From Desulfomonilaceae bacterium (GTDB taxonomy: Bacteria > Desulfobacterota > Desulfomonilia > Desulfomonilales > Desulfomonilaceae), in the NCBI GenBank assembly GCA_031082285.1, contig JAVHLK010000015.1, positions 1 through 34,995 on the forward strand: DNA of 34,995 nucleotides, in the 5' to 3' direction. Positions 4,917-29,603 of the stretch are shown here, one piece after another. A model generated the notes under the pieces. It saw nothing but the letters and a program-made list of their open reading frames with translations, was not told the origin of the DNA and made no database searches. How positions within the stretch are numbered: position 1 is the stretch's first letter; each line of letters starts with the position of its first letter. Position numbers and translations under genes: made by a program.

Positions 4917-7493
4917 TTACTTTGAGAATCCACGGCCTCCGTGTGCTCTTCGCCTTTCGATAAGAAGGAGTATGGCCGGCAAGGTGGTGAGGGTTAACGC
5001 TACGGCCGCGGCCATGCCGATCACCATTGCCCAACCGAGAAATTCGAGGGAATAGTGTTGTGACGTAAGCATGGCCACGAAGCCCGTAACGTTTGCCAGA
5101 GAAGTGAATATGATGGGTCTGGTGACACGGGACATGGCTTCGTCAACGGAGCCTCCCGTGGCCGAAGAGCTTCCCATGACCACGTGCACGCCGTTGTCCA
5201 TTCCCAGACCGAAAATGAGGGGAGCGACGCCGACAATGGAAAAGGGGAGGCCCAAGCCCAGCGCACCCGTAACTCCAAGCGTAATGCAAAACGCGCCGGT
5301 CATGGGAATGAGACTCAAGAATACGCTGAGGGGATGCCGGAACAGAATGAAGAAGAAGGCCACCACGGAGAGAAGGACCACGAGCCCGAGTCTGACCAGT
5401 TCGGAAACCAGGCCGGAGAGAATCGCCTCCATGGCCTGTCGAGGACCCGAAATGTTCACGGTGATCGGCAGGTTTTGAACGGCATCCATCAGCTTGCGGT
5501 CTGCCTTGCGCAGTTCCGCCATGTCCGCTACCTGGTCGGAGTATCGTATCTGTGTGAGAAAGCGATACTTGCCGTCGATCCTGGTTTGGTACCAACTCCG
5601 TTCCAATCGTGTCAGTTCATCGATTTCTACCGTACCGGGGCCTGCCAGTTCCCCAAAGACTCGTTTCGTGGCATCGAAAGACTTTCTTGCGGTTTTTCTT
5701 GCCTTTTCGGAAAAATCGGACCGGACCAGCTCCTCGGAAAATTCCCGGTCCAGTTTGTGCCAACGGCTCGCGACATCTCCAAAAAACGCAACATTTGCTT
5801 CCCTGACCCGGTCGGGCGACATGAGATACGAGATGGAATCGATGGACGCGATCTCATGGTCGCGCTCCATCAGATTCTCAAGAACCTCATCCAGGCCGCG
5901 TTGAAAAGCCAGCCCTTCCTGCAGGTCGTCGACTTCGAATGACAACAACGTGGGCTGAGCGAAATTCGCGTGGAATTTCCGTGAGATCATTTTGGATACG
6001 TCCATGGACTCCATGTCACGGGCGAGAAAGACCTTGAAAAGATCCTTTTCATATGACACCCGCGTAGTGGACAACAGGCTCAGCAGGAGCACCAGACCGG
6101 AAACAATGATTATGACCCCGGGACCGCGCTTGTACAACCTTGAAAAGACCTTGAAGGACACCCGCATGCGAGGGAAATAGTCACGCTTTCGTGCAGCGAT
6201 CAGCGTGACCAGCGCGGGAAAAAGAAACAGCGTGGAGCACAGCGTAAGCACCAGTCCCGACGCTCCGACCCACCCAAACTGTGCCATTGCTTGCTGGTCC
6301 GAAAGACACAGACAGAGGAAGGAAAGGATGGCGGTCAACCCGCCGAGCATCACCGGGGGGCCGGTACGTTCATAAACCACGTGAAGCGCATCGAGGGGAG
6401 TTGCTCCACGGTCGACCTCCTCTCTGAATCGGCCCCACAAATGGACCCCGTAGTCGACCCCAAGGCCAAAGAGTACGCCGGAAGCGCCCATCACTACCGG
6501 ATTCACCTCCTCGTACCCCAAGTAGATGAGTCCGTAGTTCGGACCGATCCCCGCGACGATCGGAGTCATCAGGATTACCGCGGACCAGAAACTCCGATAC
6601 ACGGAGAACAGCAACAGCGACACCATACTGAAAGAGAAGACGAGGATGACAAGGGTTTCCCGATCGAATATCTTGTCGGATTCGTAATGGAATGCGGTCT
6701 TTCCCGTAAGGTACCACTTCAGGTCGCCCCACTTTTCGTTGCCGCCGGGCAGCGAGCCCTTCAACTCGGAGATCTTTTCAGGAATTGCGTCCCGCATCCG
6801 ATCGATTAAGGTGACCCCCTTGAGAATGTCCGTACTCGGAAAGTCGGGCGTAATCTGTATCAAATAGACCGTGCTGTCGGGGCTCGCGATGAGAAGATAG
6901 ATGTCGCCGAGGCTCACCGAGCCGACTCTCTTCGTCACGGACTCGGAGACGAACCGACCGAGTTCCAAGGGGTCTTCCAACAATCGCTTCTGGATATAGG
7001 GGTGTTCGGAGAGAAATACGCGGTTTCTGGTTCGTCTCAACGCGTCCTGAATCCCTTGAGGACTCAAGATCGTCCCTATTTGCTCACGCTCCCGGGGATT
7101 CATACCCAGCAAGAAGTGTTTGAACAGAATTGCAATCTGATCGTAGTCCTCCGGATCCAAGAATCGGTACCTGACGCGCCGAATTTCCGGAAGGTCGGCC
7201 AGGCTCTCACCCAATCCCTTGATGAAAGGAAGTCGGTCTTCTCCGGGAGGTTCGGGAAACTCCAACACCAAAATCAGCGAGTCCTGTTCCCCGAAGACCT
7301 CGTTGTTTTCTTGAGTCAAACGAATCACCGATTTCGAATCGCCGAGCCCTTCGATGAGATTGGTACTCAGCTTGATCATCGGCATGGCTGAGAAACCCGC
7401 AACCGCAAGTGACAGGAAGATCACGATGATCAGACGGGGCCACGTCACCGAGAGCGTGCAGATCTTCATGATGAGAAATATGAGCAACCGCAT
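4917..7493 (-). CDS. RND/MMPL-family exporter, large form
   Basis: An 858-residue membrane transporter of the RND superfamily (MMPL branch, the group that includes the hopanoid exporter HpnN). It has two repeats, each with an N-terminal membrane span, a ~200-residue extracytoplasmic loop and a cluster of five further spans. The spans carry the RND motif with the acidic proton-relay residue: GVDYGVHL (Asp near residue 346) in the first half and GMDNGVHV (Asp near 766) in the second, so both halves look energised. The start is ATG at 7493, preceded on the minus strand by AGGTGA; an in-frame start at 7595 would add 34 residues that look like leader. It is transcribed away from the two related exporters at 7797-12734. 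The likely cargo is a lipid or hydrophobic envelope component; nothing in the sequence identifies it. Confidence 0.85.
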   Translation of the reverse strand: MRLLIFLIMKICTLSVTWPRLIIVIFLSLAVAGFSAMPMIKLSTNLIEGLGDSKSVIRLTQENNEVFGEQDSLILVLEFPEPPGEDRLPFIKGLGESLADLPEIRRVRYRFLDPEDYDQIAILFKHFLLGMNPREREQIGTILSPQGIQDALRRTRNRVFLSEHPYIQKRLLEDPLELGRFVSESVTKRVGSVSLGDIYLLIASPDSTVYLIQITPDFPSTDILKGVTLIDRMRDAIPEKISELKGSLPGGNEKWGDLKWYLTGKTAFHYESDKIFDRETLVILVFSFSMVSLLLFSVYRSFWSAVILMTPIVAGIGPNYGLIYLGYEEVNPVVMGASGVLFGLGVDYGVHLWGRFREEVDRGATPLDALHVVYERTGPPVMLGGLTAILSFLCLCLSDQQAMAQFGWVGASGLVLTLCSTLFLFPALVTLIAARKRDYFPRMRVSFKVFSRLYKRGPGVIIIVSGLVLLLSLLSTTRVSYEKDLFKVFLARDMESMDVSKMISRKFHANFAQPTLLSFEVDDLQEGLAFQRGLDEVLENLMERDHEIASIDSISYLMSPDRVREANVAFFGDVASRWHKLDREFSEELVRSDFSEKARKTARKSFDATKRVFGELAGPGTVEIDELTRLERSWYQTRIDGKYRFLTQIRYSDQVADMAELRKADRKLMDAVQNLPITVNISGPRQAMEAILSGLVSELVRLGLVVLLSVVAFFFILFRHPLSVFLSLIPMTGAFCITLGVTGALGLGLPFSIVGVAPLIFGLGMDNGVHVVMGSSSATGGSVDEAMSRVTRPIIFTSLANVTGFVAMLTSQHYSLEFLGWAMVIGMAAAVALTLTTLPAILLLIERRRAHGGRGFSK

Positions 7494-7796
7494 GAGATCA
7501 CCTATTTGGACATCGGAGCGATCCGTCTGATATGATCGGTGCGAGAAAACTTGCCGGGTCGAGTATTGGTAGCATATTGACCGGACATCCGGCAATGGCC
7601 TGTGCCCCGTACGCTTCGGGCCGAGAGTGAAAACCTTTGCCGGGGGGACCGGTGAGGCGATATAAGCGGTCCTTGGGACGCGATGCCTCGAATGTCGATG
7701 AGTACGGACGTTGAGGCGGCTTCAGAACCGTGCCGAGGCATGTACCCGAACCGACGGATTCACGACGATCGCGAAGACAAACCGGAGATTACGTAC
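7494..7796. other. Divergent intergenic region between MMPL exporters
   Basis: This 303-base gap separates two divergently read exporters and must carry both promoters, though none could be fixed confidently. The part from about 7722 to 7773 aligns without gaps, at roughly two-thirds identity, to the sequence upstream of the second tandem exporter (10314-10365). The original duplication therefore included part of this leader. The reading frame of the right-hand gene stays open back to 7683, but the matching frame before the second copy is stopped at 10326, so the upstream part is treated as non-coding. Confidence 0.5.
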
Positions 7797-10115
7797 GTGT
7801 TGAAACCTACGGAAAAAATGATGTCGGACCTTCTGGTAAACCGAAGGGGTTTACTGGTCTGGTTGACGGTACTGGTCACGGCAGGACTCGTGTGTTTCAT
7901 TCCGGGCATGACCACGGATCCCACCCTCAAGTCGGGCATCGACACGGATGCCCCGGACTATCGGGAATATGAGCGGTTCCTGAAAATCTTCGGGAGCGAG
8001 GAATTCATCCTGATTGCCGTGAGGAATACTGGCCCGGTTGACGATCCGAAGGTGCTGAAGTCTCTGGCTGCGATCACCGAGCAGCTGGAGGGCCTGGACA
8101 AGGTCACGGACGTGGTGAGTCTTGCCAACTTCAAGATGTTTGGGGAGAAACAAGGCCTCTTCGGCAGTTACGACCTGGTGCGAACCGAGGGTGATTCGCT
8201 GAAGCTTGCGGATGGGGCCGAGGTGGAAAAGATCAGGAAAGCCCTGCCGGTCTTTGACTTTCTTCTCTCACGCGACGGAAAGACCTTCGGGTTGCTGGTT
8301 CGGCTCGATGATGAATGGAGATTCGACATCCCGGTCATCGAGGAGACGGTCGGCCGGATAGGGTCGATCGTCCGCTCCCATGAGGCGGATGGTTCGGAGT
8401 ACCGCATCGTGGGCGCACCGATCGTACGGCAGGCAATTCACAAATACAACTTACAGACCGCCGTCCTATTCGGAATACTCTGCCTGACCATAGCCACGTC
8501 CGTTTCGTTTTATATTTTCAAGAGCTTGAGGGTGACGCTCATCGCCATGACGGTGATGACGATGTGTGTTGCATGGATCCTGGCCTTCATGTCCATCACG
8601 GGAATACCTCTGAACTCGACCACCGGCCTGTCTTTCGGCCTCGTGTTGATCGTAAGCGTGGCCGCGGTCATCCGGATCACGACCCATTTCAACGAGCGGT
8701 ACAGTCAGGTGCACGACAGGGCTGAAGCCGCCAGGCAGGCCCTGTACGTGGTCCTGGTTCCTTGCTTCATGTGTTCGACCACCACTTCGGTGGGATTCGG
8801 CAGCATCATGGTGAGCACCATCCCCATGGTGTTTCAGTTGGGCCTGATCATGTCCCTGGGCGTGATGATGTCGTTCGTCCTCTGCGTGGTCCTGACGCCG
8901 GCCTTTCTCACGAAAATGAAACCCATCAGTCCCCTCTCGTACGAGCGCATGTCCCGGGATTGGACGGCGAAGGCGTTGGCCGCCATCGAGAGAGCGATCG
9001 TCAAATACCATCGACGATGCGTCGTTATGGGCCTTGTCGGTGCACTTGTCATGACTGCGGGCATACCGTTCATCCACAGCGATACGCAAATCCTGCGAAT
9101 GCTGTCGGATCGAACCCCCGAGATGAAGGACATACACTTCGTCGAAGAGCACCTGACCCGCATACACTCGCTTGAACTGGTCATCGAGGCCGAGCCGAGA
9201 ATCTTCCGACAACCCGAGGCATGGAAGAAGGTTTCAGCCATGCAGGAGAGGCTCATGGCGCTTCCTGAGGTGGTGTCCATAGACTCCTTTCTCCCTCTCC
9301 TCGAGTACCTCACCGAGATGCTCGATTCCCCCGAGTCCTCCAAAACCGAATTGTTCAGCGATCCCCGAATGCTCACCGACCTGTTTGCTCTTGTGTCATT
9401 CAGCGCCGACGCACGAATGCTCGCGCGCAGATTCCTCGATGAGGACTTCGGCATTCTGCACCTGTCGGTGAAGATCAAGAACTCTCCGTCGGTTCCCATC
9501 GCGAACACCATCGAGGAAGTGCGTTCCGCGGCCCAATCGGCCATGGGCCACACGGGGAGAGTGTCCGTCACCGGCGATATCGCGGTCTTTGCGGCACAGG
9601 CCTCCGGACTGGTCACATCGCAGCTCTATTCCCTGATACTGGCTTTTACTGCCATCACCGCGCTGTTGATGATACACCTGCGGTCCGTCACGCTGGGGCT
9701 GATCAGCCTGATACCCAACTTGTTCCCGGTGGTCACCATTCTCGGAGTCATGGGATGGCTCGGAATATCGCTGGACACGGTTACCGTGTTCTGCGCCGCG
9801 GTGGCTCTGGGTCTTGCCGTGGATGACACGGTCCATTTCCTCAAACAGCTGAGGAACGAGTTGAAACTCAGGGGGCACGAACAGACCTTTGAACAGAGTG
9901 TTCACCGCGCGTACGAGATCACGGCAAAAGCCATGGTCTCCACATCCGCGGTACTGTTCTTCGGGTTCGTCATGCTCCTGTTGTCCCCTTTTCGCCCGGT
10001 GAACTCGTTCGGGATTCTCTCCTCAGTCGCCATTCTTACCGCACTATTCGGCGATGTTCTGTTGTTGCCTTCACTCCTCTTGTCTTCCAACTTCGTGAGA
10101 CGCCTTCTGTTACGT
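7774..10115 (+). repeat. Tandem duplication, copy A
   Basis: This segment repeats at 10366-12707 with a constant offset of 2,592 bases and no gaps. Bases 7907-9937 (2,031 bases) appear identical to copy B. Differences sit only near the ends: 7871 and 7906 on the left; 9938, 10013, 10046, 10052 and 10064 on the right; then rapid decay after about 10097. Confidence 0.95.
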
Positions 10116-10127
10116 GGGGGGGCCTAA
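7797..10127 (+). CDS. RND/MMPL-family exporter, tandem copy A
   Basis: A 776-residue RND-superfamily transporter (COG1033-like) with two six-span repeats, each with a large extracytoplasmic loop. The second half carries the acidic RND motif GLAVDDTVHFL (Asp-Asp near residues 675-676). At the equivalent place in the first half the sequence is SVAAVIRITTHF (near 285), with no acidic residue, so proton coupling is probably asymmetric. The start is GTG 7797, with GGAG at 7784-7787 and a 9-base gap. The frame is open further upstream to ATG 7683, but the leader differs from copy B, whose frame is stopped at 10326. The protein is nearly identical to copy B; visible differences are Gly/Asp in FIPGMTTD, Leu/Phe in DVLLLPSLL, and the extreme C-terminus. 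Substrate unknown; a lipid or envelope component is likely from the family. Confidence 0.87.
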   Translation: MLKPTEKMMSDLLVNRRGLLVWLTVLVTAGLVCFIPGMTTDPTLKSGIDTDAPDYREYERFLKIFGSEEFILIAVRNTGPVDDPKVLKSLAAITEQLEGLDKVTDVVSLANFKMFGEKQGLFGSYDLVRTEGDSLKLADGAEVEKIRKALPVFDFLLSRDGKTFGLLVRLDDEWRFDIPVIEETVGRIGSIVRSHEADGSEYRIVGAPIVRQAIHKYNLQTAVLFGILCLTIATSVSFYIFKSLRVTLIAMTVMTMCVAWILAFMSITGIPLNSTTGLSFGLVLIVSVAAVIRITTHFNERYSQVHDRAEAARQALYVVLVPCFMCSTTTSVGFGSIMVSTIPMVFQLGLIMSLGVMMSFVLCVVLTPAFLTKMKPISPLSYERMSRDWTAKALAAIERAIVKYHRRCVVMGLVGALVMTAGIPFIHSDTQILRMLSDRTPEMKDIHFVEEHLTRIHSLELVIEAEPRIFRQPEAWKKVSAMQERLMALPEVVSIDSFLPLLEYLTEMLDSPESSKTELFSDPRMLTDLFALVSFSADARMLARRFLDEDFGILHLSVKIKNSPSVPIANTIEEVRSAAQSAMGHTGRVSVTGDIAVFAAQASGLVTSQLYSLILAFTAITALLMIHLRSVTLGLISLIPNLFPVVTILGVMGWLGISLDTVTVFCAAVALGLAVDDTVHFLKQLRNELKLRGHEQTFEQSVHRAYEITAKAMVSTSAVLFFGFVMLLLSPFRPVNSFGILSSVAILTALFGDVLLLPSLLLSSNFVRRLLLRGGA

Positions 10128-10388
10128 TACAAGCGGTTGCCGTAGGGAGGCGTCGGGGGTGGACGTGTTCGTGAATGCGATGAGTTCCCCGTTTGGAACT
10201 TTTCTGCTACAGAGGGAGTGTGTGTGCGGAGACACATCGGCAGTCCAATACCGGGCGTTTGTCGAAGGCGATTCCACCTGGGTGGGGCATTGGTTACGGA
10301 TTTTTCGCAACTCTAAGGAGCTTGCTGAACCACGTGCCTTAACCGGCGTATTAACGAGACTCGTAAAGACAAACCGGAGATTACGTAC
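10128..10388. other. Spacer between the tandem exporter copies
   Basis: These 261 bases separate the two copies. The last ~75 bases (from about 10314) are diverged homologue of the leader of copy A and include the same GGAG ribosome-binding site, at 10376-10379. The rest resembles nothing recognised. A weak 93-codon frame crossing it is not supported as a gene. Confidence 0.5.
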
Positions 10389-12707
10389 GTGTTGAAACCT
10401 ACGGAAAAAATGATGTCGGACCTTCTGGTAAACCGAAGGGGTTTACTGGTCTGGTTGACGGTGCTGGTCACGGCAGGACTCGTGTGTTTCATTCCGGACA
10501 TGACCACGGATCCCACCCTCAAGTCGGGCATCGACACGGATGCCCCGGACTATCGGGAATATGAGCGGTTCCTGAAAATCTTCGGGAGCGAGGAATTCAT
10601 CCTGATTGCCGTGAGGAATACTGGCCCGGTTGACGATCCGAAGGTGCTGAAGTCTCTGGCTGCGATCACCGAGCAGCTGGAGGGCCTGGACAAGGTCACG
10701 GACGTGGTGAGTCTTGCCAACTTCAAGATGTTTGGGGAGAAACAAGGCCTCTTCGGCAGTTACGACCTGGTGCGAACCGAGGGTGATTCGCTGAAGCTTG
10801 CGGATGGGGCCGAGGTGGAAAAGATCAGGAAAGCCCTGCCGGTCTTTGACTTTCTTCTCTCACGCGACGGAAAGACCTTCGGGTTGCTGGTTCGGCTCGA
10901 TGATGAATGGAGATTCGACATCCCGGTCATCGAGGAGACGGTCGGCCGGATAGGGTCGATCGTCCGCTCCCATGAGGCGGATGGTTCGGAGTACCGCATC
11001 GTGGGCGCACCGATCGTACGGCAGGCAATTCACAAATACAACTTACAGACCGCCGTCCTATTCGGAATACTCTGCCTGACCATAGCCACGTCCGTTTCGT
11101 TTTATATTTTCAAGAGCTTGAGGGTGACGCTCATCGCCATGACGGTGATGACGATGTGTGTTGCATGGATCCTGGCCTTCATGTCCATCACGGGAATACC
11201 TCTGAACTCGACCACCGGCCTGTCTTTCGGCCTCGTGTTGATCGTAAGCGTGGCCGCGGTCATCCGGATCACGACCCATTTCAACGAGCGGTACAGTCAG
11301 GTGCACGACAGGGCTGAAGCCGCCAGGCAGGCCCTGTACGTGGTCCTGGTTCCTTGCTTCATGTGTTCGACCACCACTTCGGTGGGATTCGGCAGCATCA
11401 TGGTGAGCACCATCCCCATGGTGTTTCAGTTGGGCCTGATCATGTCCCTGGGCGTGATGATGTCGTTCGTCCTCTGCGTGGTCCTGACGCCGGCCTTTCT
11501 CACGAAAATGAAACCCATCAGTCCCCTCTCGTACGAGCGCATGTCCCGGGATTGGACGGCGAAGGCGTTGGCCGCCATCGAGAGAGCGATCGTCAAATAC
11601 CATCGACGATGCGTCGTTATGGGCCTTGTCGGTGCACTTGTCATGACTGCGGGCATACCGTTCATCCACAGCGATACGCAAATCCTGCGAATGCTGTCGG
11701 ATCGAACCCCCGAGATGAAGGACATACACTTCGTCGAAGAGCACCTGACCCGCATACACTCGCTTGAACTGGTCATCGAGGCCGAGCCGAGAATCTTCCG
11801 ACAACCCGAGGCATGGAAGAAGGTTTCAGCCATGCAGGAGAGGCTCATGGCGCTTCCTGAGGTGGTGTCCATAGACTCCTTTCTCCCTCTCCTCGAGTAC
11901 CTCACCGAGATGCTCGATTCCCCCGAGTCCTCCAAAACCGAATTGTTCAGCGATCCCCGAATGCTCACCGACCTGTTTGCTCTTGTGTCATTCAGCGCCG
12001 ACGCACGAATGCTCGCGCGCAGATTCCTCGATGAGGACTTCGGCATTCTGCACCTGTCGGTGAAGATCAAGAACTCTCCGTCGGTTCCCATCGCGAACAC
12101 CATCGAGGAAGTGCGTTCCGCGGCCCAATCGGCCATGGGCCACACGGGGAGAGTGTCCGTCACCGGCGATATCGCGGTCTTTGCGGCACAGGCCTCCGGA
12201 CTGGTCACATCGCAGCTCTATTCCCTGATACTGGCTTTTACTGCCATCACCGCGCTGTTGATGATACACCTGCGGTCCGTCACGCTGGGGCTGATCAGCC
12301 TGATACCCAACTTGTTCCCGGTGGTCACCATTCTCGGAGTCATGGGATGGCTCGGAATATCGCTGGACACGGTTACCGTGTTCTGCGCCGCGGTGGCTCT
12401 GGGTCTTGCCGTGGATGACACGGTCCATTTCCTCAAACAGCTGAGGAACGAGTTGAAACTCAGGGGGCACGAACAGACCTTTGAACAGAGTGTTCACCGC
12501 GCGTACGAGATCACGGCAAAAGCCATGGTTTCCACATCCGCGGTACTGTTCTTCGGGTTCGTCATGCTCCTGTTGTCCCCTTTTCGCCCGGTGAACTCGT
12601 TCGGAATTCTCTCCTCAGTCGCCATTCTTACCGCACTGTTCGGTGATGTTCTGTTCTTGCCTTCACTCCTCTTGTCTTCCAACTTCGTCAGACGGCTACT
12701 GATGAAA
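10366..12707 (+). repeat. Tandem duplication, copy B
   Basis: Partner of 7774-10115 at an offset of 2,592 bases. The central 2,031 bases (10499-12529) appear identical, while the sequence on either side is homologous but diverged. Confidence 0.95.
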
Positions 12708-12734
12708 GGAGCGGCAAAGAGGGAGCCCGCATAG
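10389..12734 (+). CDS. RND/MMPL-family exporter, tandem copy B
   Basis: A 781-residue twin of the exporter at 7797-10127, with the same two-repeat architecture, the same missing acidic residue in the first half and the same VDDTVHFL motif in the second. It differs at FIPDMTTD and DVLFLPSLL, and in the last ~12 residues (ending RLLMKGAAKREPA, against RLLLRGGA in copy A). Start GTG 10389 is well supported: an in-frame stop lies at 10326-10328 with no other usual start between, and GGAG precedes it by 9 bases. The pair may act as two subunits or raise dosage; RND transporters assemble as trimers, so mixed assemblies are conceivable. It is followed by a short convergent gap of about 120 bases before a minus-strand DUF2062 gene. 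Confidence 0.87.
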   Translation: MLKPTEKMMSDLLVNRRGLLVWLTVLVTAGLVCFIPDMTTDPTLKSGIDTDAPDYREYERFLKIFGSEEFILIAVRNTGPVDDPKVLKSLAAITEQLEGLDKVTDVVSLANFKMFGEKQGLFGSYDLVRTEGDSLKLADGAEVEKIRKALPVFDFLLSRDGKTFGLLVRLDDEWRFDIPVIEETVGRIGSIVRSHEADGSEYRIVGAPIVRQAIHKYNLQTAVLFGILCLTIATSVSFYIFKSLRVTLIAMTVMTMCVAWILAFMSITGIPLNSTTGLSFGLVLIVSVAAVIRITTHFNERYSQVHDRAEAARQALYVVLVPCFMCSTTTSVGFGSIMVSTIPMVFQLGLIMSLGVMMSFVLCVVLTPAFLTKMKPISPLSYERMSRDWTAKALAAIERAIVKYHRRCVVMGLVGALVMTAGIPFIHSDTQILRMLSDRTPEMKDIHFVEEHLTRIHSLELVIEAEPRIFRQPEAWKKVSAMQERLMALPEVVSIDSFLPLLEYLTEMLDSPESSKTELFSDPRMLTDLFALVSFSADARMLARRFLDEDFGILHLSVKIKNSPSVPIANTIEEVRSAAQSAMGHTGRVSVTGDIAVFAAQASGLVTSQLYSLILAFTAITALLMIHLRSVTLGLISLIPNLFPVVTILGVMGWLGISLDTVTVFCAAVALGLAVDDTVHFLKQLRNELKLRGHEQTFEQSVHRAYEITAKAMVSTSAVLFFGFVMLLLSPFRPVNSFGILSSVAILTALFGDVLFLPSLLLSSNFVRRLLMKGAAKREPA

Positions 12735-12853
12735 AGGCGGGTAGCAACCGCGTTTCCGGGCAAGAGCGGGCACTTGGGCACGCATCGCGCTGCCGACCGA
12801 ATATAGATTGTCGTGTTCTCCGAGGCGCAGACCGGTTCCGAAAAAGGAAGGCA

Positions 12854-13627
12854 TCAGGAGAAGCGTGTCTTGCCTGCTCGTTGAGTTGTTTGCTTGGCGG
12901 ATTGATTCACCCGTGTCTGCTGCATGCCTGCATCCGTACTCGATCGGCTCGTCCCAACGGCCTGCGGGAGGACACGTCGCTCGCTCCCACGGGATTGTTC
13001 TTCGAGATCCTGCAAGAATTCTTCATACTGCAGTCCCATTTTTCTCGCTTTTCGAATGCAGCGCATTTGCTGGATCTTGTAGGTCACCGTGTACCCGATG
13101 ATCCCGAACGTCACTGAGAGAAAGATCGCGGCTACGATCCACGTGGTGAGCAGATCCTTGCCGAGATTTGCGAACGCGGCCGTGGCCTCCCAGGAGTAGG
13201 CGGAATCACTAATGGGACTCATAAGCCGTCGGAAAACGGAGAAATCCATCGCAGTGGTTTTTCCGAGGAGGAATGCGCCGAGGCGGTAGTACCCATAGTA
13301 GACCGGTATCATGGTGAGAGGATTGGCGACAAAGCTGAATGCCAGTGCTATGATGAAGTTGAACCGATACAAGTACCTCAAGAGGCCCAATGCGATGAAC
13401 TGGGCTCCCAGCGGCACGCCGAACCCTACAGCGAGTCCGAGTGACACCCCGCGTGCGTCGTACCACGGCGGGTGGCGCGATGCGATGAGCGGAACGACAA
13501 GCGAATTGCGTATTTTACTGCGGCACCAGTCGACCCAACCATCGTATGCGGGGGATTCAGCCCCCTCATGGGCACCGGCCGCCGATTCCTTGGCCTTGGG
13601 AATGGATTCCACGTCTTGCTCCATCAT
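12854..13627 (-). CDS. DUF2062 family membrane protein
   Basis: A 257-residue membrane protein with the DUF2062 pattern. It has an N-terminal amphipathic stretch, then RHPPW followed by SLGLAVGFGVPLGAQ, a second hydrophobic block with ANPLTMIPVYYGYYRLG, and a later strong span (TTWIVAAIFLSVTFGIIGYTV). The C-terminus after this span is hydrophilic, basic and Gln/Ser-rich, and should be cytoplasmic. DUF2062 proteins have no firm biochemical role; they are often found near glycosyltransferases and envelope genes, as here. The start is uncertain: ATG 13627 has GGGAAG 8 bases upstream, while GTG 13633 would add two residues. It is divergent from tatC. Confidence 0.8.
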   Translation of the reverse strand: MMEQDVESIPKAKESAAGAHEGAESPAYDGWVDWCRSKIRNSLVVPLIASRHPPWYDARGVSLGLAVGFGVPLGAQFIALGLLRYLYRFNFIIALAFSFVANPLTMIPVYYGYYRLGAFLLGKTTAMDFSVFRRLMSPISDSAYSWEATAAFANLGKDLLTTWIVAAIFLSVTFGIIGYTVTYKIQQMRCIRKARKMGLQYEEFLQDLEEQSRGSERRVLPQAVGTSRSSTDAGMQQTRVNQSAKQTTQRAGKTRFS

Positions 13628-14841: not shown

Positions 14842-15645
14842 ATGAGCAGAGGAGTCTACGTCAATGCGACGGCCAAGGGCCGCACGTCGGAGCGCTTCTT
14901 ATCGCTCTTGTGGGCGCTGGTCGTCCGGGATGTGACGAGTCGGTATCGGCGATCGTCACTCGGGATGTGGTGGGCGGTTCTGCAGCCCCTGATACTCATG
15001 CTGCTGTTCAATATGCTCCGCGGCTTCGTTGACATCCCCAGCGACGGAATGCCGTACGTTCTCTTCAGCTACTCCGCGCTGGTACCGTGGACTTTCTTCA
15101 CTAATGCAATCTCATCCTGCGGTCCCTGCATCATCAATAATGCGGAGATCATCAAGAAAATTGCGCTTCCGAGAGAGGTATTTCCGCTCGCCGCCGTGGT
15201 CGCGACCCTATTTGATTTCGCCATGTCTTCGATCGTGTTGGCCTGCATGATGGTTTGGTTCAACGTGCCGGTGGGCCGGTCTTTACTATGGATTCCGGTG
15301 CTCGTCTGCATCATGACCGTCGCCGCGTTTGCCGTGGGATCTCTGCTCGCAGGTTTGGGGACGTTCCGCCGGGACTTCACGTTCGCAACCCCGTTCTTGA
15401 CCCAAGCCTGGCTTTTCGTTACACCGGTGATCTATCCTCTGAGCACGGTGCCGGAGAAATGGCGGTATGTGTACATGTTGAATCCCATGGTGGGCATCGT
15501 GGAAGGATTCCGGAACGTGTTGATAAAAGGTGCCGGTCCCCCGTGGGAACCTCTGGTGATGTCCGTCGCGATCACGGGGTTGCTGCTCGCGGTCTGCCGG
15601 CCTTTGTTCCGAAGGTTGTCCGAGTATTTTGCAGATGTACTCTGA
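14842..15645 (+). CDS. ABC-2 type polysaccharide export permease (Wzm-like)
   Basis: A 267-residue permease of the polysaccharide/polyol-phosphate ABC-2 family, with about six membrane spans. Typical blocks are RDVTSRYRRSSLGMWWAVLQP near the N-terminus (residues ~29-49), NNAEIIKKIALPREVFPLA in the middle, FRRDFTF, and the C-terminal LNPMVGIVEGFRNVL. These proteins form the membrane channel that carries a lipid-linked glycan across the inner membrane, powered by a Wzt-type ATPase; that ATPase is encoded next (15702). It opens the glycan locus. No strong Shine-Dalgarno precedes ATG 14842, and an 85-base gap separates it from tatC, so it may start a new transcript. Confidence 0.9.
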   Translation: MSRGVYVNATAKGRTSERFLSLLWALVVRDVTSRYRRSSLGMWWAVLQPLILMLLFNMLRGFVDIPSDGMPYVLFSYSALVPWTFFTNAISSCGPCIINNAEIIKKIALPREVFPLAAVVATLFDFAMSSIVLACMMVWFNVPVGRSLLWIPVLVCIMTVAAFAVGSLLAGLGTFRRDFTFATPFLTQAWLFVTPVIYPLSTVPEKWRYVYMLNPMVGIVEGFRNVLIKGAGPPWEPLVMSVAITGLLLAVCRPLFRRLSEYFADVL

Positions 15646-15701
15646 GATGGATGTGCACGAAGCGAGCCGCTGCGGCTCGAGATCATCACGCTGAAAAGAC
15701 C

Positions 15702-16919
15702 ATGCCTGAAGAAGTGACCATTCGCATTGAAGGTCTTTGGAAACGGTACGGATTCCCCATTCCCGAGTTTGTACGGCGAGGGGTGGACCGTCTCAAGAGG
15801 CGTAAGAGTGCGGACAATGACGGACCGTGGGCCCTTCGCGACATCAACCTGGAGATTCGAAGGGGCGAGACGGTCGGGATCGTAGGCCGGAACGGCGCGG
15901 GAAAGAGCACGTTGCTCAAGGTTCTGGCAGGCGTCACCACCCCCACCCGGGGGAGGGTCGAAGTGCTCGGGCGAATCTTTCCCATGATCGAGCTCAATGC
16001 AGGGTTGCACATGGAACTTACCGGCCGAGAGAACGTGCGGCTTTTGGGCGCGGTCATGGGGCTGTCGCGGCGAGAGATCGACGCGGGACTTCCGGGCATC
16101 CAGGAATTTACCGAACTCGGTGAGTGGTTCGACAAGCCGGTCCGCATGTATTCCAGCGGCATGCTGGCCCGATTGGGATTCGGCGTGGCCGTAAACATCG
16201 AGAGTGACGTCATCCTCATTGACGAAACGTTTGCCGTCGGCGACCTGAAGTTCCAAAATAAGAGCCTTGCCCGCGTGAGGGAAATGCGCGAGAGCGGCGC
16301 GACTATTCTCCTGGTGAGCCACAGTTTGGAGACCCTTCAATTCGTCGCAAGACGGGGAATTCTCGTGGAAGAGGGCCGACTTGTGGCGGAAGGGACCGCG
16401 CTCGAGGCAATCAACGCGTACGAAACGCTTGTGTTCCGGTCCGAACAGAAACGGCTTGAACACCGTGTGAGAAGCAGGATCTCGAGCGAGGAGGTCAACA
16501 TATACGCGGCGCGTCTCTACTCTGAAGACGGTGAGTCATTGTTCGAAGTTCCGGCAGGCTCTCCCTTCGGCATCGAGGTGGATATCCGGCTCAACAGGCC
16601 GTTGCGACGGCCCATGTTTTCTCTGGGAATTCTGAACGCTCAGGGGATACTCTGCAAGTGGAACATCTCGGAGGAGGACGGCCTCAAGGAAAAAGGAATA
16701 CCCGGACGGTACTTGCTGCGGGCCTGGTACCCGGAGAATCGGCTGTCAAATGGCGCGTACGAGGTGCACTTTGCCGCCAGAGACGCAACTTCCTTCGAGA
16801 CTCTGGAGCGGATCGCGGGCATCGTGAGCTTCGCGGTGACGGGTACCCGTCGCGCCCGGGGAATCGTTGCAGGGAAAATCCAATGGCAACTCATCCCGCA
16901 CAAGGACAGGCATTCCTAG
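15702..16919 (+). CDS. ABC transporter ATPase with Wzt-type C-terminal domain
   Basis: A 405-residue partner of the upstream permease. The N-terminal ATPase has Walker A GRNGAGKST (residues 62-70), signature SSGMLARLGFGVAV, Walker B VILIDETFAVGD and switch His in LLVSHS, all typical of the Wzt/TagH subgroup. Residues ~265-405 form a second, beta-rich domain (from EEVNIYAARLY to AGKIQWQL) matching the Wzt C-terminal domain, which in O-antigen systems binds the non-reducing end of the finished glycan and licenses export. That predicts a chain bearing a specific terminal cap; a methyltransferase gene follows at 18079. ATG 15702 is 56 bases after the permease stop. An in-frame ATG at 15651 is possible, and the frame extends to 15255 inside the permease, which is not credible coding. 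Confidence 0.92.
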   Translation: MPEEVTIRIEGLWKRYGFPIPEFVRRGVDRLKRRKSADNDGPWALRDINLEIRRGETVGIVGRNGAGKSTLLKVLAGVTTPTRGRVEVLGRIFPMIELNAGLHMELTGRENVRLLGAVMGLSRREIDAGLPGIQEFTELGEWFDKPVRMYSSGMLARLGFGVAVNIESDVILIDETFAVGDLKFQNKSLARVREMRESGATILLVSHSLETLQFVARRGILVEEGRLVAEGTALEAINAYETLVFRSEQKRLEHRVRSRISSEEVNIYAARLYSEDGESLFEVPAGSPFGIEVDIRLNRPLRRPMFSLGILNAQGILCKWNISEEDGLKEKGIPGRYLLRAWYPENRLSNGAYEVHFAARDATSFETLERIAGIVSFAVTGTRRARGIVAGKIQWQLIPHKDRHS

Positions 16920-16959
16920 TACTGCGCGGCGTAAACGCGGTTACAGATTCTTCCGCGCT

Positions 16960-17047
16960 GAGATTGCTTCGTCGCAGGGCTCCTCGCAAAGACATCTTCG
17001 AGGTTGTCATTGCGAGGGTCCCGCGCAGAACGCGGGATGGCAATCTC
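16960..17047. repeat. Dispersed palindromic repeat element (REP/MITE-like)
   Basis: An imperfect palindrome in the 236-base gap after the ABC ATPase. Outer arms GAGATTGC (16960-16967) and GCAATCTC (17040-17047) are exact complements. Inner arms GCTCCTCGCAAAGAC (from 16979) and GTCATTGCGAGG (17006-17017) nearly complement each other. The right arm also contains a CCCGCG/CGCGGG hairpin (17020-17036). A 12-base piece, GCAGAACGCGGG, recurs inverted at 17139-17150. The same motif pattern occurs at 24368-24430. No coding content is seen. Confidence 0.7.
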
Positions 17048-17155
17048 GACAGTTCAAGAGGAAACTGTGAGCGTAATTGTGCCACGGAGTACTAGGCAGA
17101 GCCCGGGTACGAGAAGGAAACGCTCGGTAGCGTCCCGTCCCGCGTTCTGCACGGT

Positions 17156-18082
17156 ATGCCGGGCACTCTCGGATCAATGAATAAGGATCTGCATATCCCC
17201 ATCGACGGCAAAGATTATGCCGTGACGGTCATACGCAGAGTTGTTGCGCCCGCGGAAGTTCCCCGGCTGGTGGTCGTGTCACGTCTTCCCAACGATGCAT
17301 CCGTCGGGTTGCTCGAAACCTGTGTGCGGTCCATTCGGTCCTTTACCCCGGAGCCGCATGAACTGTGGGTGGTTGACAACAATTCGCCGGAGGGCAATCT
17401 CGTGAGTTTCATGGAACGGTCCAACCTGAACCTTGTGTTGAACAGGACCGAGCCTCTTCCCCCTGATTTCCATACGGCGGATCACCCTGTGCCGGCGGAC
17501 GCGGACCAGAAACATTGGGGCAGTTATGCCAACGGGCTGGCTTTGGAACTTGCCGTGCGATTGATCGACCCACAATCCCGCTACTTGATGTCGCTGCATA
17601 TGGACGCGTTGCCCTGCCGTTCAGGGTGGCTTACGTATCTCGTCTCCAAGCTGGGGTTCGGGGTGGGTGCCGCAGGGGTACGCATGGACAGGGCCCGCAC
17701 GCCGGAAGGCGTGCTCCATGTCCTGGGTTGCGTGGTCGATTTCCAACTTTTCAAGCAACTTGGTCTGGATTTCTTCCCGGATCTCCCGCAGTTGGACACC
17801 GGGGACAAGGTAACCATAGGACTCAGGAAAGCCGGTTATAAGGTTTTTCACTGCCCGAACACAGTGTGGGAACCGGAGTTGATTGCCAATATTCCACGGT
17901 CGTCTCCTTTGAGCCGTCTCAACGTGGACCGGGCTTTTGACGATAAGGGAAACGTGATATTCCTTCACTTGGGCCGCGGAGTTCGGAAATCCACCGGAGA
18001 GCACCGGAGAGGGCCGACGGTTGAGGAATGGGTGCGGGTGATACACGATTGCATTCTTGGTGATGCGGAAGTTCAGAGATGA
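17156..18082 (+). CDS. GT2-like glycosyltransferase (GT-A fold)
   Basis: A 308-residue protein resembling family 2 glycosyltransferases. Residues ~40-80 contain VVVSRLPNDASVG, LLETCVRSIRSFTP and ELWVVDNNSPEGN, the nucleotide-binding beginning of a GT-A fold. A later MSLHMDALPCRSGWL stands where the metal-binding DxD usually is; only one Asp is kept there, so the metal site is atypical. The C-terminal third has KAGYKVFHCPNTVW and EWVRVIHDCILG. ATG 17156 is used; ATG 17177 is equally possible, and neither has a clear Shine-Dalgarno. The stop overlaps the next start by four bases (ATGA), so the downstream methyltransferase is probably co-translated. Donor and acceptor cannot be told from sequence. 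Confidence 0.72.
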   Translation: MPGTLGSMNKDLHIPIDGKDYAVTVIRRVVAPAEVPRLVVVSRLPNDASVGLLETCVRSIRSFTPEPHELWVVDNNSPEGNLVSFMERSNLNLVLNRTEPLPPDFHTADHPVPADADQKHWGSYANGLALELAVRLIDPQSRYLMSLHMDALPCRSGWLTYLVSKLGFGVGAAGVRMDRARTPEGVLHVLGCVVDFQLFKQLGLDFFPDLPQLDTGDKVTIGLRKAGYKVFHCPNTVWEPELIANIPRSSPLSRLNVDRAFDDKGNVIFLHLGRGVRKSTGEHRRGPTVEEWVRVIHDCILGDAEVQR

Positions 18083-18900
18083 CCGGGTGTGCGGTACGCA
18101 AGAACGATCGGCACGGCCCACGGCCTGGGCCCGAACGAGAAAAGCACGTGATGCCGGCACATGTCGCGGGCATGGGCGGCACGCCGAAACTCCGGTTCTT
18201 TCCGAAGTCTCATCCAATGCGAGACCTGGGATATTCACTGAGACGTCACTTTGTCGATCAGTTCCACTTCCGTCACGTGGCCGATCTCACACCGGGCGCG
18301 CTGGTGCTGGACCTGGGCGGCAACCGCATTGCCAAGCGAGGACTGTTCGACATAGAGCACTACGGGCTTCAGGTCGTCTACGCGAATCTCTCCACGGCCA
18401 AGCAGCCCCATGTTCAGATGGATGCAGCCGCATTGCCCTTTGGTGAAGGTCGATTTCACGCGGTCATTTGCTCGGAATTGCTGGAACACGTTCCCGATCC
18501 CGTGGCGGTCCAGTCTGAAATTTACCGTGTGTTGCGGCCTCAGGGGATCGCGCTCATGTGTGTTCCCTTCCTGAACAAGATCCATGGCGATCCGTACGAT
18601 TACGGCAGATACACGGAGTTCTTCTGGTCAAATCACCTGGAACGAATCGGATTTCGAGACATTGAGATCGAGAGGCACGGGAGCTTCTGGAGCGTCCTGG
18701 TTGATATGCTTCGTGATCTGGCCTGTACGATGCTCGGCCGCAGAGGATGGGGACTGGTGTCGTTGATCCGACTCGTCTCGTTCATGCTGTTCGTTGCAAA
18801 GATCAAAGCGCTCAAATGGGACGGATCGACTGACTCGAAACGCTCCCTTGTGCCGGAGGGATATACGACCGGATTCGGTATCACGGCGGTTAAGGCATGA
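18079..18900 (+). CDS. Class I SAM-dependent methyltransferase in glycan locus
   Basis: A 273-residue Methyltransf_11-like protein. Motif I reads LVLDLGGNR (about residues 75-83), an unusual version without the classic GxGxG. Later motifs are clearer: AAALPFGEGRFHAVICSELLEHV, then VQSEIYRVLRPQGIALMCVPF. The region ~205-235 is hydrophobic (ACTMLGRRGWGLVSLIRLVSF), which could hold it at the membrane. It sits between glycosyltransferase genes with four-base ATGA overlaps on both sides, so it most likely modifies the growing or finished glycan, possibly as the terminal cap recognised by the Wzt-type domain. That role is inferred from context. Confidence 0.8.
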   Translation: MTGCAVRKNDRHGPRPGPEREKHVMPAHVAGMGGTPKLRFFPKSHPMRDLGYSLRRHFVDQFHFRHVADLTPGALVLDLGGNRIAKRGLFDIEHYGLQVVYANLSTAKQPHVQMDAAALPFGEGRFHAVICSELLEHVPDPVAVQSEIYRVLRPQGIALMCVPFLNKIHGDPYDYGRYTEFFWSNHLERIGFRDIEIERHGSFWSVLVDMLRDLACTMLGRRGWGLVSLIRLVSFMLFVAKIKALKWDGSTDSKRSLVPEGYTTGFGITAVKA

Positions 18901-20915
18901 GCAAACCAAGAGTTTTCCTGACCGGCGGCGATGGGATCGGTTGGGCCGTCGATGAAGACCTGAGGCTCACGGAGCAGGCGCTGGAAGGTACTGTGGATCT
19001 TACGGATCTTCAGGATTGTCGAATCGTCCACTCCGTGTGGTGGGAAGGTCTGATGGTGCTTCCGCACGATTCGCTCGCCGGCAAAAGGATTATCTGCCAT
19101 GTTCCCGGAGAGCCCTTCCGGTACTTCTCGGTGCCGGCACATCGCCACGCGCGTGCCATGGTGGGGAAATGGGTAACGCGAACCGGTCAGGCGGCGCGTC
19201 AGCTCCAAGGATTCGGCATCGCTTGCGCGCAGATCCCGTACCTGATCGATGTGAACACGTTCAAACCCCTCGATGAAACCGATCGACGTCTTTTGGAACT
19301 GCGAGGGCGTCTCAATCTCCCCGCGGACACGTACTTGATCGGAAGTTTCCAGCGAGACACGGAAGGCTCGGATCTGGTCAGCCCCAAGCTCGCCAAAGGC
19401 CCCGACGTGCTGCTGGAGATCCTCGTGGGTTTGCGGCGCCGCAACGTCAATTTCCACGCGATCCTTGCAGGACCGCGGCGACACTGGCTGCGGAGAAGGC
19501 TCGATGAAGAGCAAATCCCGTTCACATACGTCGGCACGCCCGCCGACGGCGACGATCTCCATATGAACTCTCTGTCAAGAGCGACATTGAACGTACTCTA
19601 CAATCTTCTTGACGTGTACATCGTGTCGAGTCGCTCCGAGGGAGGTCCGCATGCCTTCCTGGAAGCCTCGGCCTCCAGGTGCAAAGTGATCGGCACGCCG
19701 GTCGGAATGGCCCACGATGTCTTGGACGAAGGGTGCATCTTCCGGTCCGTCCCCGAGGCGATCCGGATTATCGAACGGGACGCGGCGGACGATGCATTGG
19801 TCCGGACCCGAGAACGGAACTTACGGAAAGTGTACGAGAACCACCGGCCGGAGACGGCAAAGGCGTTGTTCGAGAAGCTCTATGCCGATGTGGACTCCGT
19901 GCCGGTATTCTGCGGCCGGCATAAGCGGAAGATCACGGGAAGGGGAAAGAGGGGGCAAGTCGGCCACCGGGACAATGACGAGCGTACGAGAGGAACGTCG
20001 GGTCTCACCGTCGGCCTGTGGCACAGCTTTTTCAAACCGCCGTACGGAGGCGGTAATCAATTCATGATGGCGCTGCGCAAAGGCTTGTCGGGGTTCGGAG
20101 TCACGGTGAGAGAGAACGAGCTCGAGCAGCGAATCGACGCATACGTACTCAATTCAATCCATTTCGACGTGGACCGGTTCTTGGCGTTCAGCCTGGAACA
20201 CGGACTCAACGTCGTTCATCGGATCGACGGCCCGATCCACCTTATCAGGGGCTTTGACCGTGAGAAGGACGAGCTTTGCTTCGATCTGAACTCCCGATTC
20301 GCGTCCGCGACGGTGCTCCAGTCGGCCTGGACCTATCAGCGCATCGTAGAGATGGGATACAACCCGGTCAATCCGGTTATTATCCACAACGCGGCGGACC
20401 CCGACATCTTTCACTCCAACGGGCGTGCGCCATTCGACCGCAATCGGCGAACCCGTCTGATATCGACCAGTTGGTCGAACAATCCGAGAAAGGGCGGCCC
20501 CACGTACAAGTGGATCGAAGAGCATCTCGACTGGGACAGGTTCGAGTACACGTTCGTGGGAAACTCGTCGGAAGCGTTTGACCGGATTCGGCACATTCCC
20601 CCCGTGCCGTCGCGGGAACTGGCGGATCTGCTCCGATCGCACGACGTGTACATCACCGCCGGCCGCAATGACCCGTGCTCGAACGCGCTGATCGAAGCCC
20701 TCGCCTGTGGACTGCCGGCCCTGTTCCTCAACGACGGAGGCCACCCGGAACTCGTCGGCATGGGGGGGCTTCCCTTCACGTGCCGTGAGGAGATCCCGGC
20801 TCGGCTTGACGAGATCGTGGACAACTACGAGTCTTTTCAGCGGCTGATAGCGGTTCCCAAACTCGAGGACGTCGCGGAGAAATACCTCGCACTGATTAGA
20901 GAGGTGATCCAATGA
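18897..20915 (+). CDS. Double-domain GT4/GT-B glycosyltransferase
   Basis: A 672-residue protein made of two glycosyltransferase units. Unit 1 (about 1-345) ends in a family-4 donor site, SSRSEGGPHAFLEAS, with the EX7E pair Glu248/Glu256. A basic hydrophilic linker (~345-368) follows. Unit 2 (about 370-672) begins with GLWHSFFKPPYGGGNQF, a typical GT4 N-terminal Gly-rich loop, and ends in NDPCSNALIEALACGLP, where the first Glu of the pair is Asp592 and the second is Glu600. The protein could add two sugars in succession, or one unit may be structural. It starts with an ATGA overlap with the methyltransferase stop and ends with another overlap with the next glycosyltransferase. Confidence 0.85.
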   Translation: MSKPRVFLTGGDGIGWAVDEDLRLTEQALEGTVDLTDLQDCRIVHSVWWEGLMVLPHDSLAGKRIICHVPGEPFRYFSVPAHRHARAMVGKWVTRTGQAARQLQGFGIACAQIPYLIDVNTFKPLDETDRRLLELRGRLNLPADTYLIGSFQRDTEGSDLVSPKLAKGPDVLLEILVGLRRRNVNFHAILAGPRRHWLRRRLDEEQIPFTYVGTPADGDDLHMNSLSRATLNVLYNLLDVYIVSSRSEGGPHAFLEASASRCKVIGTPVGMAHDVLDEGCIFRSVPEAIRIIERDAADDALVRTRERNLRKVYENHRPETAKALFEKLYADVDSVPVFCGRHKRKITGRGKRGQVGHRDNDERTRGTSGLTVGLWHSFFKPPYGGGNQFMMALRKGLSGFGVTVRENELEQRIDAYVLNSIHFDVDRFLAFSLEHGLNVVHRIDGPIHLIRGFDREKDELCFDLNSRFASATVLQSAWTYQRIVEMGYNPVNPVIIHNAADPDIFHSNGRAPFDRNRRTRLISTSWSNNPRKGGPTYKWIEEHLDWDRFEYTFVGNSSEAFDRIRHIPPVPSRELADLLRSHDVYITAGRNDPCSNALIEALACGLPALFLNDGGHPELVGMGGLPFTCREEIPARLDEIVDNYESFQRLIAVPKLEDVAEKYLALIREVIQ

Positions 20916-22027
20916 CCGGGCGCCTCGTTCTGTTCTTTACTCGAGGAGTGTCTCTCCGCACGTGGAGCATGGTGGGGATGCTCCACAGGGAAACGGCCTT
21001 ATACAAGCGGATGATCCAACGCGGGTTGGAGGTGGGCTTCGTCACCTATGGTGACGAGACGGACCTGTCATACGCGAAGGAACTGGGTGACATTCGCATC
21101 CTCTGCAACTCTGACGGGCTTCCGCTCCCTCAATACGAGGAAGAGCTTGCCGAAATCCATCGCAAAGAACTCGAACGCGCTCACGTCGTCAAGACAAACC
21201 AGACGTACGGCGCGGACATTGCGCTGCACGCGGCACGGCGATACGATAAGCCGTTGATTGCGCGGTGCGGTTACATGTGGTCGTGGACCGCCGGCATGGA
21301 ACACGGCATTGACTCGGCCGCGGCCGAACACGCGCGGCGAATGGAAGAAACGGTTTTCAGCGCTGCTCGCAGGGTTGTGGTGACCGCGGATGCAATGCGT
21401 TCGGACATCGTGGAGAGAATCCCGGGAACTGAATCAAGAATCAGGGTCATTCCCAATTACGTGGACACCGATCAGTTCCGGCCGATCGGCATTCCGCGCG
21501 ACTCGAACACCGCGGTGTTTGTCGGACGATTGTCTTCGGAAAAGAACCTTGCACCCCTCCTTGAAGCGACCCTATCGTTGGGCATGAGCCTGGTCGTCAT
21601 CGGCGAGGGTAGGCTCCGGCCGCAACTTCAGGAGATGTATCCCGACGCGGACGGCCGCGTACGATGGGAAGGGAATGTTCCGAATCACAGGCTCCCGCAC
21701 TACCTCAATGACGCGACGGTCTTTGTTCTTCCCTCACTGTACGAAGGACATCCCAAGGTGCTCATCGAGGCCATGGCGTGTGGCCTGCCGGTGCTGGGAG
21801 CCGACTCGCCGGGAATCAGAGACGTCATCGAGCACGAGGTCAACGGCTATCTGTGCAGTCCCGATGCAAAGGGCATTCGCCATGCGCTGGAGCAACTCTT
21901 GAAGAATCCCTCCCTCCGAGCCAAGATCGGCTGCAACGCCAGGAAGTTTGCCGCGGAAAATTATTCGCTGGACCGGGTACTCGAAATGGAACTGGCGCTG
22001 CTGAAAGAGGTCGTTGTCGGCACGTGA
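20912..22027 (+). CDS. GT4-family glycosyltransferase
   Basis: A 371-residue GT-B fold glycosyltransferase of family 4. Motifs: IPNYVDTDQFRPIG in the interdomain region, VFVGRLSSEKNLAPLLEA at the start of the C-terminal Rossmann domain (Arg and Lys bind the nucleotide-sugar phosphates), and LYEGHPKVLIEAMACGLPVLG with Glu278/Glu286 as the EX7E pair. Length and order are normal. There is no signal peptide or membrane span, so it is cytoplasmic. Its ATG overlaps the previous stop by four bases, and its own stop overlaps the next ATG by one base, giving an unbroken coupled run. Confidence 0.92.
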   Translation: MTGRLVLFFTRGVSLRTWSMVGMLHRETALYKRMIQRGLEVGFVTYGDETDLSYAKELGDIRILCNSDGLPLPQYEEELAEIHRKELERAHVVKTNQTYGADIALHAARRYDKPLIARCGYMWSWTAGMEHGIDSAAAEHARRMEETVFSAARRVVVTADAMRSDIVERIPGTESRIRVIPNYVDTDQFRPIGIPRDSNTAVFVGRLSSEKNLAPLLEATLSLGMSLVVIGEGRLRPQLQEMYPDADGRVRWEGNVPNHRLPHYLNDATVFVLPSLYEGHPKVLIEAMACGLPVLGADSPGIRDVIEHEVNGYLCSPDAKGIRHALEQLLKNPSLRAKIGCNARKFAAENYSLDRVLEMELALLKEVVVGT

Positions 22028-23025
22028 TGCGAACCCCGAGAGTTACCGTTCTCATGTCCGTTTTCAACGGCCCCGCGTGCTTGGCCGACGCGGTGGGGAG
22101 CATTCTCGGCCAGGATTTTACGGATTTTGAGTTTCTCATCATCGACGACGGGTCCACGTACACGTTTGACGACGTCATAGACTTTTTCAACGACGATCGT
22201 ATCGTGGTGATCCGTCAAGAAAATATGGGCTTGACGCGATCGTTGAACAAGGGTCTGCTCCTTGCCCGGGGAGCATATGTCGCGAGAATGGATTCCGACG
22301 ACATCTCGGCGCCGGGAAGACTGTCCGCACAAGTCGGCAGACTGGATGCGCATGACCGTCTCGATCTCGTGGGATGCTTCTTCAATGTAATAGACGGACG
22401 GGGAACGGTCGTTGAGAGGAGGAGGCCTTTCGTTGATCCCATATACCGGCTGTGGAGACTTCAATTCCACAACAACTACGGCCACGGGTCGGTCATGATG
22501 CGTAAGGAGTCGGTCATTGATGTGGGGATGTACGACGAATCCTTTCGATATGCCCAGGATTTCGATCTCTGGTCGCGCTTGTCACGGAAAGACAACACCG
22601 AGATTATCCCGGACGCTCTGTATTCATATCGAATGGTGAACAGTTCCGAGCAATCGTCGGTCCGCAACTATGACCATCAACTGGCCAACGCCGTCGTCAT
22701 CAGTAATCGGAGTTTGAAAGCCTGCAACCCGAACCTGAGCGATTCGGACTGCAGTGAGGTTCGGGCGCTTTACTGGGAGTTTGAATTTGCCGGCGTGTCC
22801 GCCGAGGGCCTTTCTCGGCTGCCTGCCACGCTGTACGGTTTCTGTGAGCGGTACGGCATCCGAAGCGCGGAGTGGACCGACCTGCTCGAACGGGTCGACC
22901 GGGACGCGCGTGAAGGGATGGTTCGATCTGAACGCATTTCGGAGGTCGATCGTGCCAAGCTGAGAAGTCGGCTCGTGAAGTTACGGGCCGGTGCGGCCGA
23001 CACGTCGCATGAGGAACAGGCATGA
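22027..23025 (+). CDS. GT2-family glycosyltransferase
   Basis: A 332-residue GT-A fold enzyme. The N-terminus TPRVTVLMSVFNGPACLADAV is the classic GT2 opening. IIDDGS (Asp40, Asp41) binds the nucleotide, MDSDD (residues 88-92) is the DxD metal site, and FRYAQDFDLWSRLS carries the QDxDLW acceptor-side motif with the likely catalytic base. The C-terminal ~110 residues are helical and charged. ATG 22027 overlaps the preceding stop (TGATG). The same frame is open back to 21778 inside the upstream gene, but those residues do not resemble the family. It is the last gene of the coupled run; a 195-base gap follows. Confidence 0.92.
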   Translation: MRTPRVTVLMSVFNGPACLADAVGSILGQDFTDFEFLIIDDGSTYTFDDVIDFFNDDRIVVIRQENMGLTRSLNKGLLLARGAYVARMDSDDISAPGRLSAQVGRLDAHDRLDLVGCFFNVIDGRGTVVERRRPFVDPIYRLWRLQFHNNYGHGSVMMRKESVIDVGMYDESFRYAQDFDLWSRLSRKDNTEIIPDALYSYRMVNSSEQSSVRNYDHQLANAVVISNRSLKACNPNLSDSDCSEVRALYWEFEFAGVSAEGLSRLPATLYGFCERYGIRSAEWTDLLERVDRDAREGMVRSERISEVDRAKLRSRLVKLRAGAADTSHEEQA

Positions 23026-23220
23026 ACGCGGATCGTTTTTGATTGAATTCCGGCCGGCCCGCTTCTATCATAATCCCAAGTGATTCTGTTGGGAATGGAG
23101 GGCGGCCTTGTCTTTCGAATGGTACTTTGGTACATGACGCCCGACATACAATGACCGAACAAACGGTACCGCGCCCCATTGCGGCAATTCTGCGGAACTG
23201 ATACGTCAAGGGGAGGTTTC

Positions 23221-29193: not shown

Positions 29194-29379
29194 ATGTGGC
29201 AAGAAATAGTCGTAGGAGCAATTGTAGCCCTGTGCGCAGTGTTTCTCGTGAGGCGATATCTGAAGAATCTGCGAGGGGCAAAGAGCGGCAAAGTCGCGTG
29301 CTCGTGCGATTGCACGGGATGCGACAATACGCTGAACCCACCTCCCGCGTGCGGAACGGATGAGGCTCGTAAGACCTAA
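29194..29379 (+). CDS. FeoB-associated Cys-rich membrane protein
   Basis: A 61-residue protein with one N-terminal membrane span (residues ~4-20), a basic segment RRYLKNLRGAKSGK, and a cytoplasmic Cys cluster CSCDCTGC (36-43) plus Cys53. This is the pattern of the small FeoB-associated Cys-rich proteins that replace FeoC in many anaerobes; the cysteines may bind iron or a cluster beside the FeoB pore. AGGA precedes ATG 29194 by about 8 bases. The 194-base gap after feoB holds a hairpin but no other gene, so co-transcription with feoAB is likely. Confidence 0.85.
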   Translation: MWQEIVVGAIVALCAVFLVRRYLKNLRGAKSGKVACSCDCTGCDNTLNPPPACGTDEARKT

Positions 29380-29423
29380 GTGTCCGGTGCGAAATAAACT
29401 TTTCATCTTTCCTGACTACCAGC

Positions 29424-29526
29424 CCGGCCTTGAAAGACCGGTCTACTTTCATACCGTCCCGGCGGGACGTGCTCGACCTTGCCCCGACAGGGGCTACTGA
29501 GAGTAGCCCGGTACTTCAGTGCCGGG
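29424..29526. repeat. Cluster of five hairpins, three mutually overlapping
   Basis: Successive inverted repeats: CCGG-N-CTT/AAG-N-CCGG (29424-29441), CGTCCC/GGGACG (29455-29469), GCCCC/GGGGC (29481-29494), GGGCTACT/AGTAGCCC (29491-29509) and CCCGGTAC/GTGCCGGG with one mismatch (29507-29526). The third and fourth share bases, as do the fourth and fifth, so they exclude one another. The cluster sits in the convergent gap between the Cys-rich Feo protein and the Gate-domain gene. CCGGCGGGACG (29459-29469) recurs at 31548-31558. Confidence 0.6.
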
Positions 29527-29603
29527 TTAAGAGCGCATCGGTCGAGACATGTGGTTGCGACTCGCTCTGAACAGTCACCCGCGGGCACGACAAGGAGCCG
29601 CTC

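Follow-up and report, generated by a model that had tools for sequence, protein, structure and literature searches.

What has kept the interior of two neighbouring exporter genes the same, while their two ends have diverged? The question is raised by a tandem pair of genes in the stretch of DNA analysed here (the window), which comprises 34,995 bases (positions 1-34995 of a contig of 69,348 bases) of a draft genome of 5.6 Mb with 314 contigs and a contamination estimate of 4.18. The original prediction for this locus had been an older duplication, the middle of which was homogenised by gene conversion or is under active concerted evolution.

Results

Two head-to-tail exporter genes

The pair consists of two head-to-tail genes on the forward strand. 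Copy 1 comprises 776 codons from a GTG at 7797 (7797-10127), its frame being open also from an ATG at 7683, and copy 2 comprises 781 codons from a GTG at 10389 (10389-12734) and has a C-terminal end that is five codons longer. Both products are matched in two stretches each by Pfam MMPL (PF03176), with 96.5 bits for copy 1 and 96.6 bits for copy 2 at a gathering cut-off of 20.5. The best NCBIfam models are TIGR00921 (HAE3), TIGR00833 (actII) and TIGR03480 (HpnN). With HAE3, copy 2 reaches 201.8 bits, below the curated cut-off of 351.9, and with the HpnN models TIGR03480 and NF052374 it reaches 79.4 and 41.1 bits, both below the respective cut-offs of 751.85 and 1100. The best solved chain found by profile is HpnN 6wu0 (E 2.2e-7). 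Since HAE3 and HpnN are the best families, both at scores below cut-off, there is a hint that the substrates could be hydrophobic or amphiphilic molecules.

A third, distantly related MMPL protein of 892 aa (109.6 bits) is encoded on the reverse strand at 4917-7595; its gene adjoins the tandem pair and is divergently transcribed. No Rfam family was found at gathering score anywhere in the window. A scan of 7400-12950 returned one promoter-like site (shuffle mean 2.0) and seven terminator-like sites (shuffle mean 4.6), none of either kind between the two exporter genes.

Identity along the pair

The copies align at a constant offset of 2,592 bases, and the exact core that had been described holds: bases 7907-9937 equal 10499-12529 without a single difference in 2,031 bases, and the exact match extends no further on either side. 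This core is part of a larger near-identical block (7774-10096 in copy 1, 10366-12688 in copy 2) with 7 differences in 2,323 bases, all of which are confined to its outer 133 bases on the left and 159 bases on the right. The left edge differs only at 7871 and 7906, all the way back to 7774, and the right edge at 9938, 10013, 10046, 10052 and 10064, until identity breaks down from 10097. Five of the seven differences are silent, and two change residues 37 and 756. When seven differences were placed in the block at random, a gap of at least 2,031 bases arose in 4 of 1,000,000 simulations.

Outside the block the copies are still alike in register, at a much lower level. In the 5' flank (7722-7773 against 10314-10365) 33 of 52 positions match, close to the two thirds given in the original prediction, and its figure of about 65% on the right is likewise recovered, with 23 of 34 matches over 10091-10124. 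The diverged C-terminal tail codons proper (10097-10124 against 12689-12716) match at 17 of 28 positions. An extension score as high as that of the left flank was obtained in none of 20,000 shuffles, and one as high as that of the right flank in 3 of 20,000. Beyond the flanks, 50-base windows at the same offset drop to 20-30% identity, and the spacer between the copies (10128-10313), when set against the bases lying 2,592 positions to either side, shows no likeness in register. The 5' flank is probably a leader rather than coding sequence, because its counterpart in copy 2 (10314-10365) contains in-frame stops and homologues start near the GTG of copy 1.

Identity along the pair is therefore uneven, as had been claimed, and three levels can be told apart: about 63% outside the block, about 97-98% at its edges and 100% in the core. 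The claim of a sharp fall at both ends stands for the left side only, where identity drops in a step, located at 7774 and not at 7907; on the right it declines as a ramp. Among segment models, four levels gave the lowest BIC (236.6), followed by three (239.7), five (241.0) and one (390.1). The five-level model is the one in which the left edge is split from the core. As that edge holds two differences only and the BIC rises to 241.0 against 236.6, a separate level for it is weakly supported. None of the 364 fourfold-degenerate sites of the core differs between the copies; of those in the left edge 1 of 21 does, in the right edge 4 of 36, and in the tail 5 of 6. Given a correct assembly, the copies are alike at silent sites in one part and diverged in register elsewhere, as is characteristic of concerted evolution.

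Homologues in related genomes

Some match to the exporter protein was found in 58 of 60 genomes, the own genome included, with at most 51% identity outside of it. Strong homologues are present in 15 of the 17 genomes of the same family, the other two (G001 and G006) giving weak matches only. The best relative (genome G010, locus L163) is 50-51% identical and the others are 38-46% identical; a further homologue in the own genome (C88) is 46% identical. At this protein identity, the C88 paralogue is out as donor of the identical core. A protein search of the genome contigs found no close relative, and there is no genome of the same genus among the relatives in the 60-genome comparison. On the DNA level, the block is matched in 14 of 42 genomes of the class, again including the own one, and beyond the own genome these matches are short pieces of 64-88% identity only.

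Fifteen loci of relatives were compared, five of which (L163, L165, L166, L172 and L173) have at least 2.7 kb of flanking sequence on both sides. A second copy adjacent to the gene occurs in none of these five. L165 carries two diverged homologues (531-4 and 8001-10313), inverted relative to each other and separated by about 7.5 kb. Judged by this sample of relatives, the tandem pair appears to be lineage-specific. In the nearest relative, L163, the exporter gene is preceded by genes for TatA, TatC, an ABC protein and a hydrolase and followed by one for an HD protein, and Yip1 and PrsW proteins are encoded near the C88 gene. A TatC protein is encoded close to the L163 gene as well as to the window pair, but the arrangement differs.

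Genomic neighbourhood

At its left end (3-1480) the window holds the last genes of a DNA phosphorothioation (dnd) cluster: one for a DndD-like protein, of which the C-terminal part is present (PADLOC DndD, E 9.2e-95, profile positions 317-659), and after it one for DndE. Downstream of the pair, a Wzm/Wzt-like ABC exporter with scores below curated cut-offs is encoded in 14842-24252, with genes for a methyltransferase and several glycosyltransferases behind it; this is likely a block for the export of surface polysaccharides. A gene for the ferrous-iron transporter FeoB occupies 26621-28999. Two dispersed repeats were also noted. The repeat at 16916-17096 is 98.9% identical over 181 bases to positions 9790-9970 of another contig (L125), and that at 29377-29533 recurs in the 1.07 Mb sample, with 17 matches in 17 sequences when it is itself counted; both are predicted to form long hairpins (-91.2 and -66.4 kcal/mol, respectively).

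Assembly of the identical core

Exact identity over 2 kb could also be produced by the assembly. The true divergence of the two genes would then be about 2% along their whole length, and one consensus would have been written, by the assembler or in polishing, wherever reads cannot reach the unique flanks, so that differences would survive near the ends only. The ends of 99 stretches were compared, 180 in all. Two contig ends have exactly 55 bases in common, and three more tips each have a match of exactly this length to an internal stretch; the remaining tip matches are longer or shorter, and many of them stem from dispersed repeats. In addition, two runs of N are flanked by repeats of 56 and 57 bases, as scaffold joins would be, with the proviso that not every run of N need be such a join. 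Because of these 55-base tip matches and the repeats beside the runs of N, the data suggest a short-read de Bruijn assembly with k=55. This value is the usual last k of metaSPAdes. According to a review, metaSPAdes collapses most strain differences (PMC8021871), which makes the interior identity suspect. The kept differences, moreover, reach inward by only 133 and 159 bases, approximately the length of a short read. Finally, the compared stretches (1.07 Mb of 5.6 Mb) contain no further assembled repeat that exceeds 278 bases at 95% identity or more, so the assembler probably traversed the 2 kb repeat of the pair as a loop in its graph. That the spacer is joined to the repeat on both sides would support at least two copies, without fixing their number.

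On the other hand, the differences at 7871 and 7906 lie behind a shared run of 97 bases and that at 9938 behind one of 74 bases, both longer than k, and yet they were kept. One similar case was kept elsewhere, in the dispersed repeat 16916-17096 as compared with L125, whereas plain collapse should erase all such differences. Retained differences behind runs longer than k thus argue against collapse. As a control, retained bubbles were counted in 97 repeat pairs; these three were the ones found, and only 7 of the 97 pairs have a shared run of at least 56 bases. Such a count is limited to survivors, since a difference that has been collapsed can no longer be seen. Even a collapsed interior would not account for the step to about 63% identity beyond the block, for which an older homogenisation would be required all the same. 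Overall, we consider an origin of the identity profile in the assembly unlikely, with an appreciable residual chance, and in our judgement the identity of the core is quite likely true or nearly true. Still, neither the exact identity of the 2 kb core nor the copy number is proven by what looks like a short-read assembly with k=55, which is the main caveat of this analysis.

Discussion

The pattern is probably best explained by a tandem duplication of older date whose copies were then homogenised through homologous recombination. One MMPL/RND exporter gene together with its short leader would have been duplicated head to tail. Since then, recombination between these direct repeats would have prevented the copies from drifting apart, either by gene conversion or by unequal crossing-over between sister chromosomes, and it would presumably depend on RecA. 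If exchanges start and stop within the alike block, the interior would be reset most often and its margins more rarely, and leader and tail, having diverged, would no longer join in the exchange; exchanges bounded in this way would result in the three identity levels. We infer this route, its recency and the correctness of the assembled core on which it would have acted. The older duplication with a homogenised middle thus remains the best-supported reading, as originally predicted, but the identity profile does not distinguish gene conversion from unequal crossing-over, which predicts the same pattern for this pair. The further suggestion of active concerted evolution goes beyond the data, as neither a close relative nor another carrier of the tandem turned up in the genomes searched.

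If the duplication was homogenised in this way, the cell would likely have a double dose of an almost identical exporter, with leaders and tails that differ between the copies. One may go further and suppose that cells of the natural population differ in copy number, with at least two units of core plus spacer, a number that the assembler could not have counted. The locus would then be a live, selected dosage array, in which recombination keeps the copies identical and separate leaders allow different expression. We regard this extension as rather doubtful.

A single recent duplication followed by even divergence would account for the lack of differences in the 2,031-base core. It would leave the edge differences and the in-register diverged flanks unexplained, unless the edge differences were assembly errors, and we consider it very improbable, as identity is uneven along the pair. 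An old duplication whose core was kept by selection on the protein alone is hardly credible: the protein is indeed conserved in relatives, many columns being invariant among 16 sequences, but fourfold-degenerate sites, provided that the core is correctly assembled, differ at none of 364 positions there as against 5 of 6 in the tail.

Should the core of the homogenised duplication be truly identical, the pair would clearly illustrate how a tandem exporter gene is homogenised, in a lineage that is uncultured and has Desulfomonile-like MAGs as relatives. More generally, kilobase-long exact repeats in short-read drafts call for a check of the reads before conversion is claimed.

Among known transporters, the copies resemble the HAE3/HpnN exporters in their best NCBIfam models, their Pfam MMPL score and HpnN 6wu0 as top chain. 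They differ in that they score below the curated cut-offs of these NCBIfam models, and they group with homologues of the same bacterial family at 38-50% identity. Among the papers listed for RND/MMPL exporters, tandem duplication and gene conversion, there was no evident match to such a pair. Concerted evolution of duplicated prokaryotic protein genes has been described for tuf, amoA/amoB, haoA, psbD, fla and mtrA, with fla and mtrA among the tandem pairs and with gene conversion or unequal recombination given as the usual causes (PMC6053082); the word 'transporter' is absent from the main text of that article. Like the window pair, the copies of those genes within one genome are alike at both silent and amino-acid sites, but there concerted evolution was shown across species by trees, whereas for the window pair it is deduced from the identity profile in one draft genome. 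Long reads have also revealed gene conversion and duplication between repeats within bacterial genomes (PMC12046097). As in our proposal, homologous recombination between intragenomic repeats gives rise to conversion tracts and duplications in that report, which used complete assemblies, whereas the window assembly, judging by its contig tips, is not based on long reads. The exporter pair, less well proven than these examples, is likely one more case of a phenomenon that is already known.
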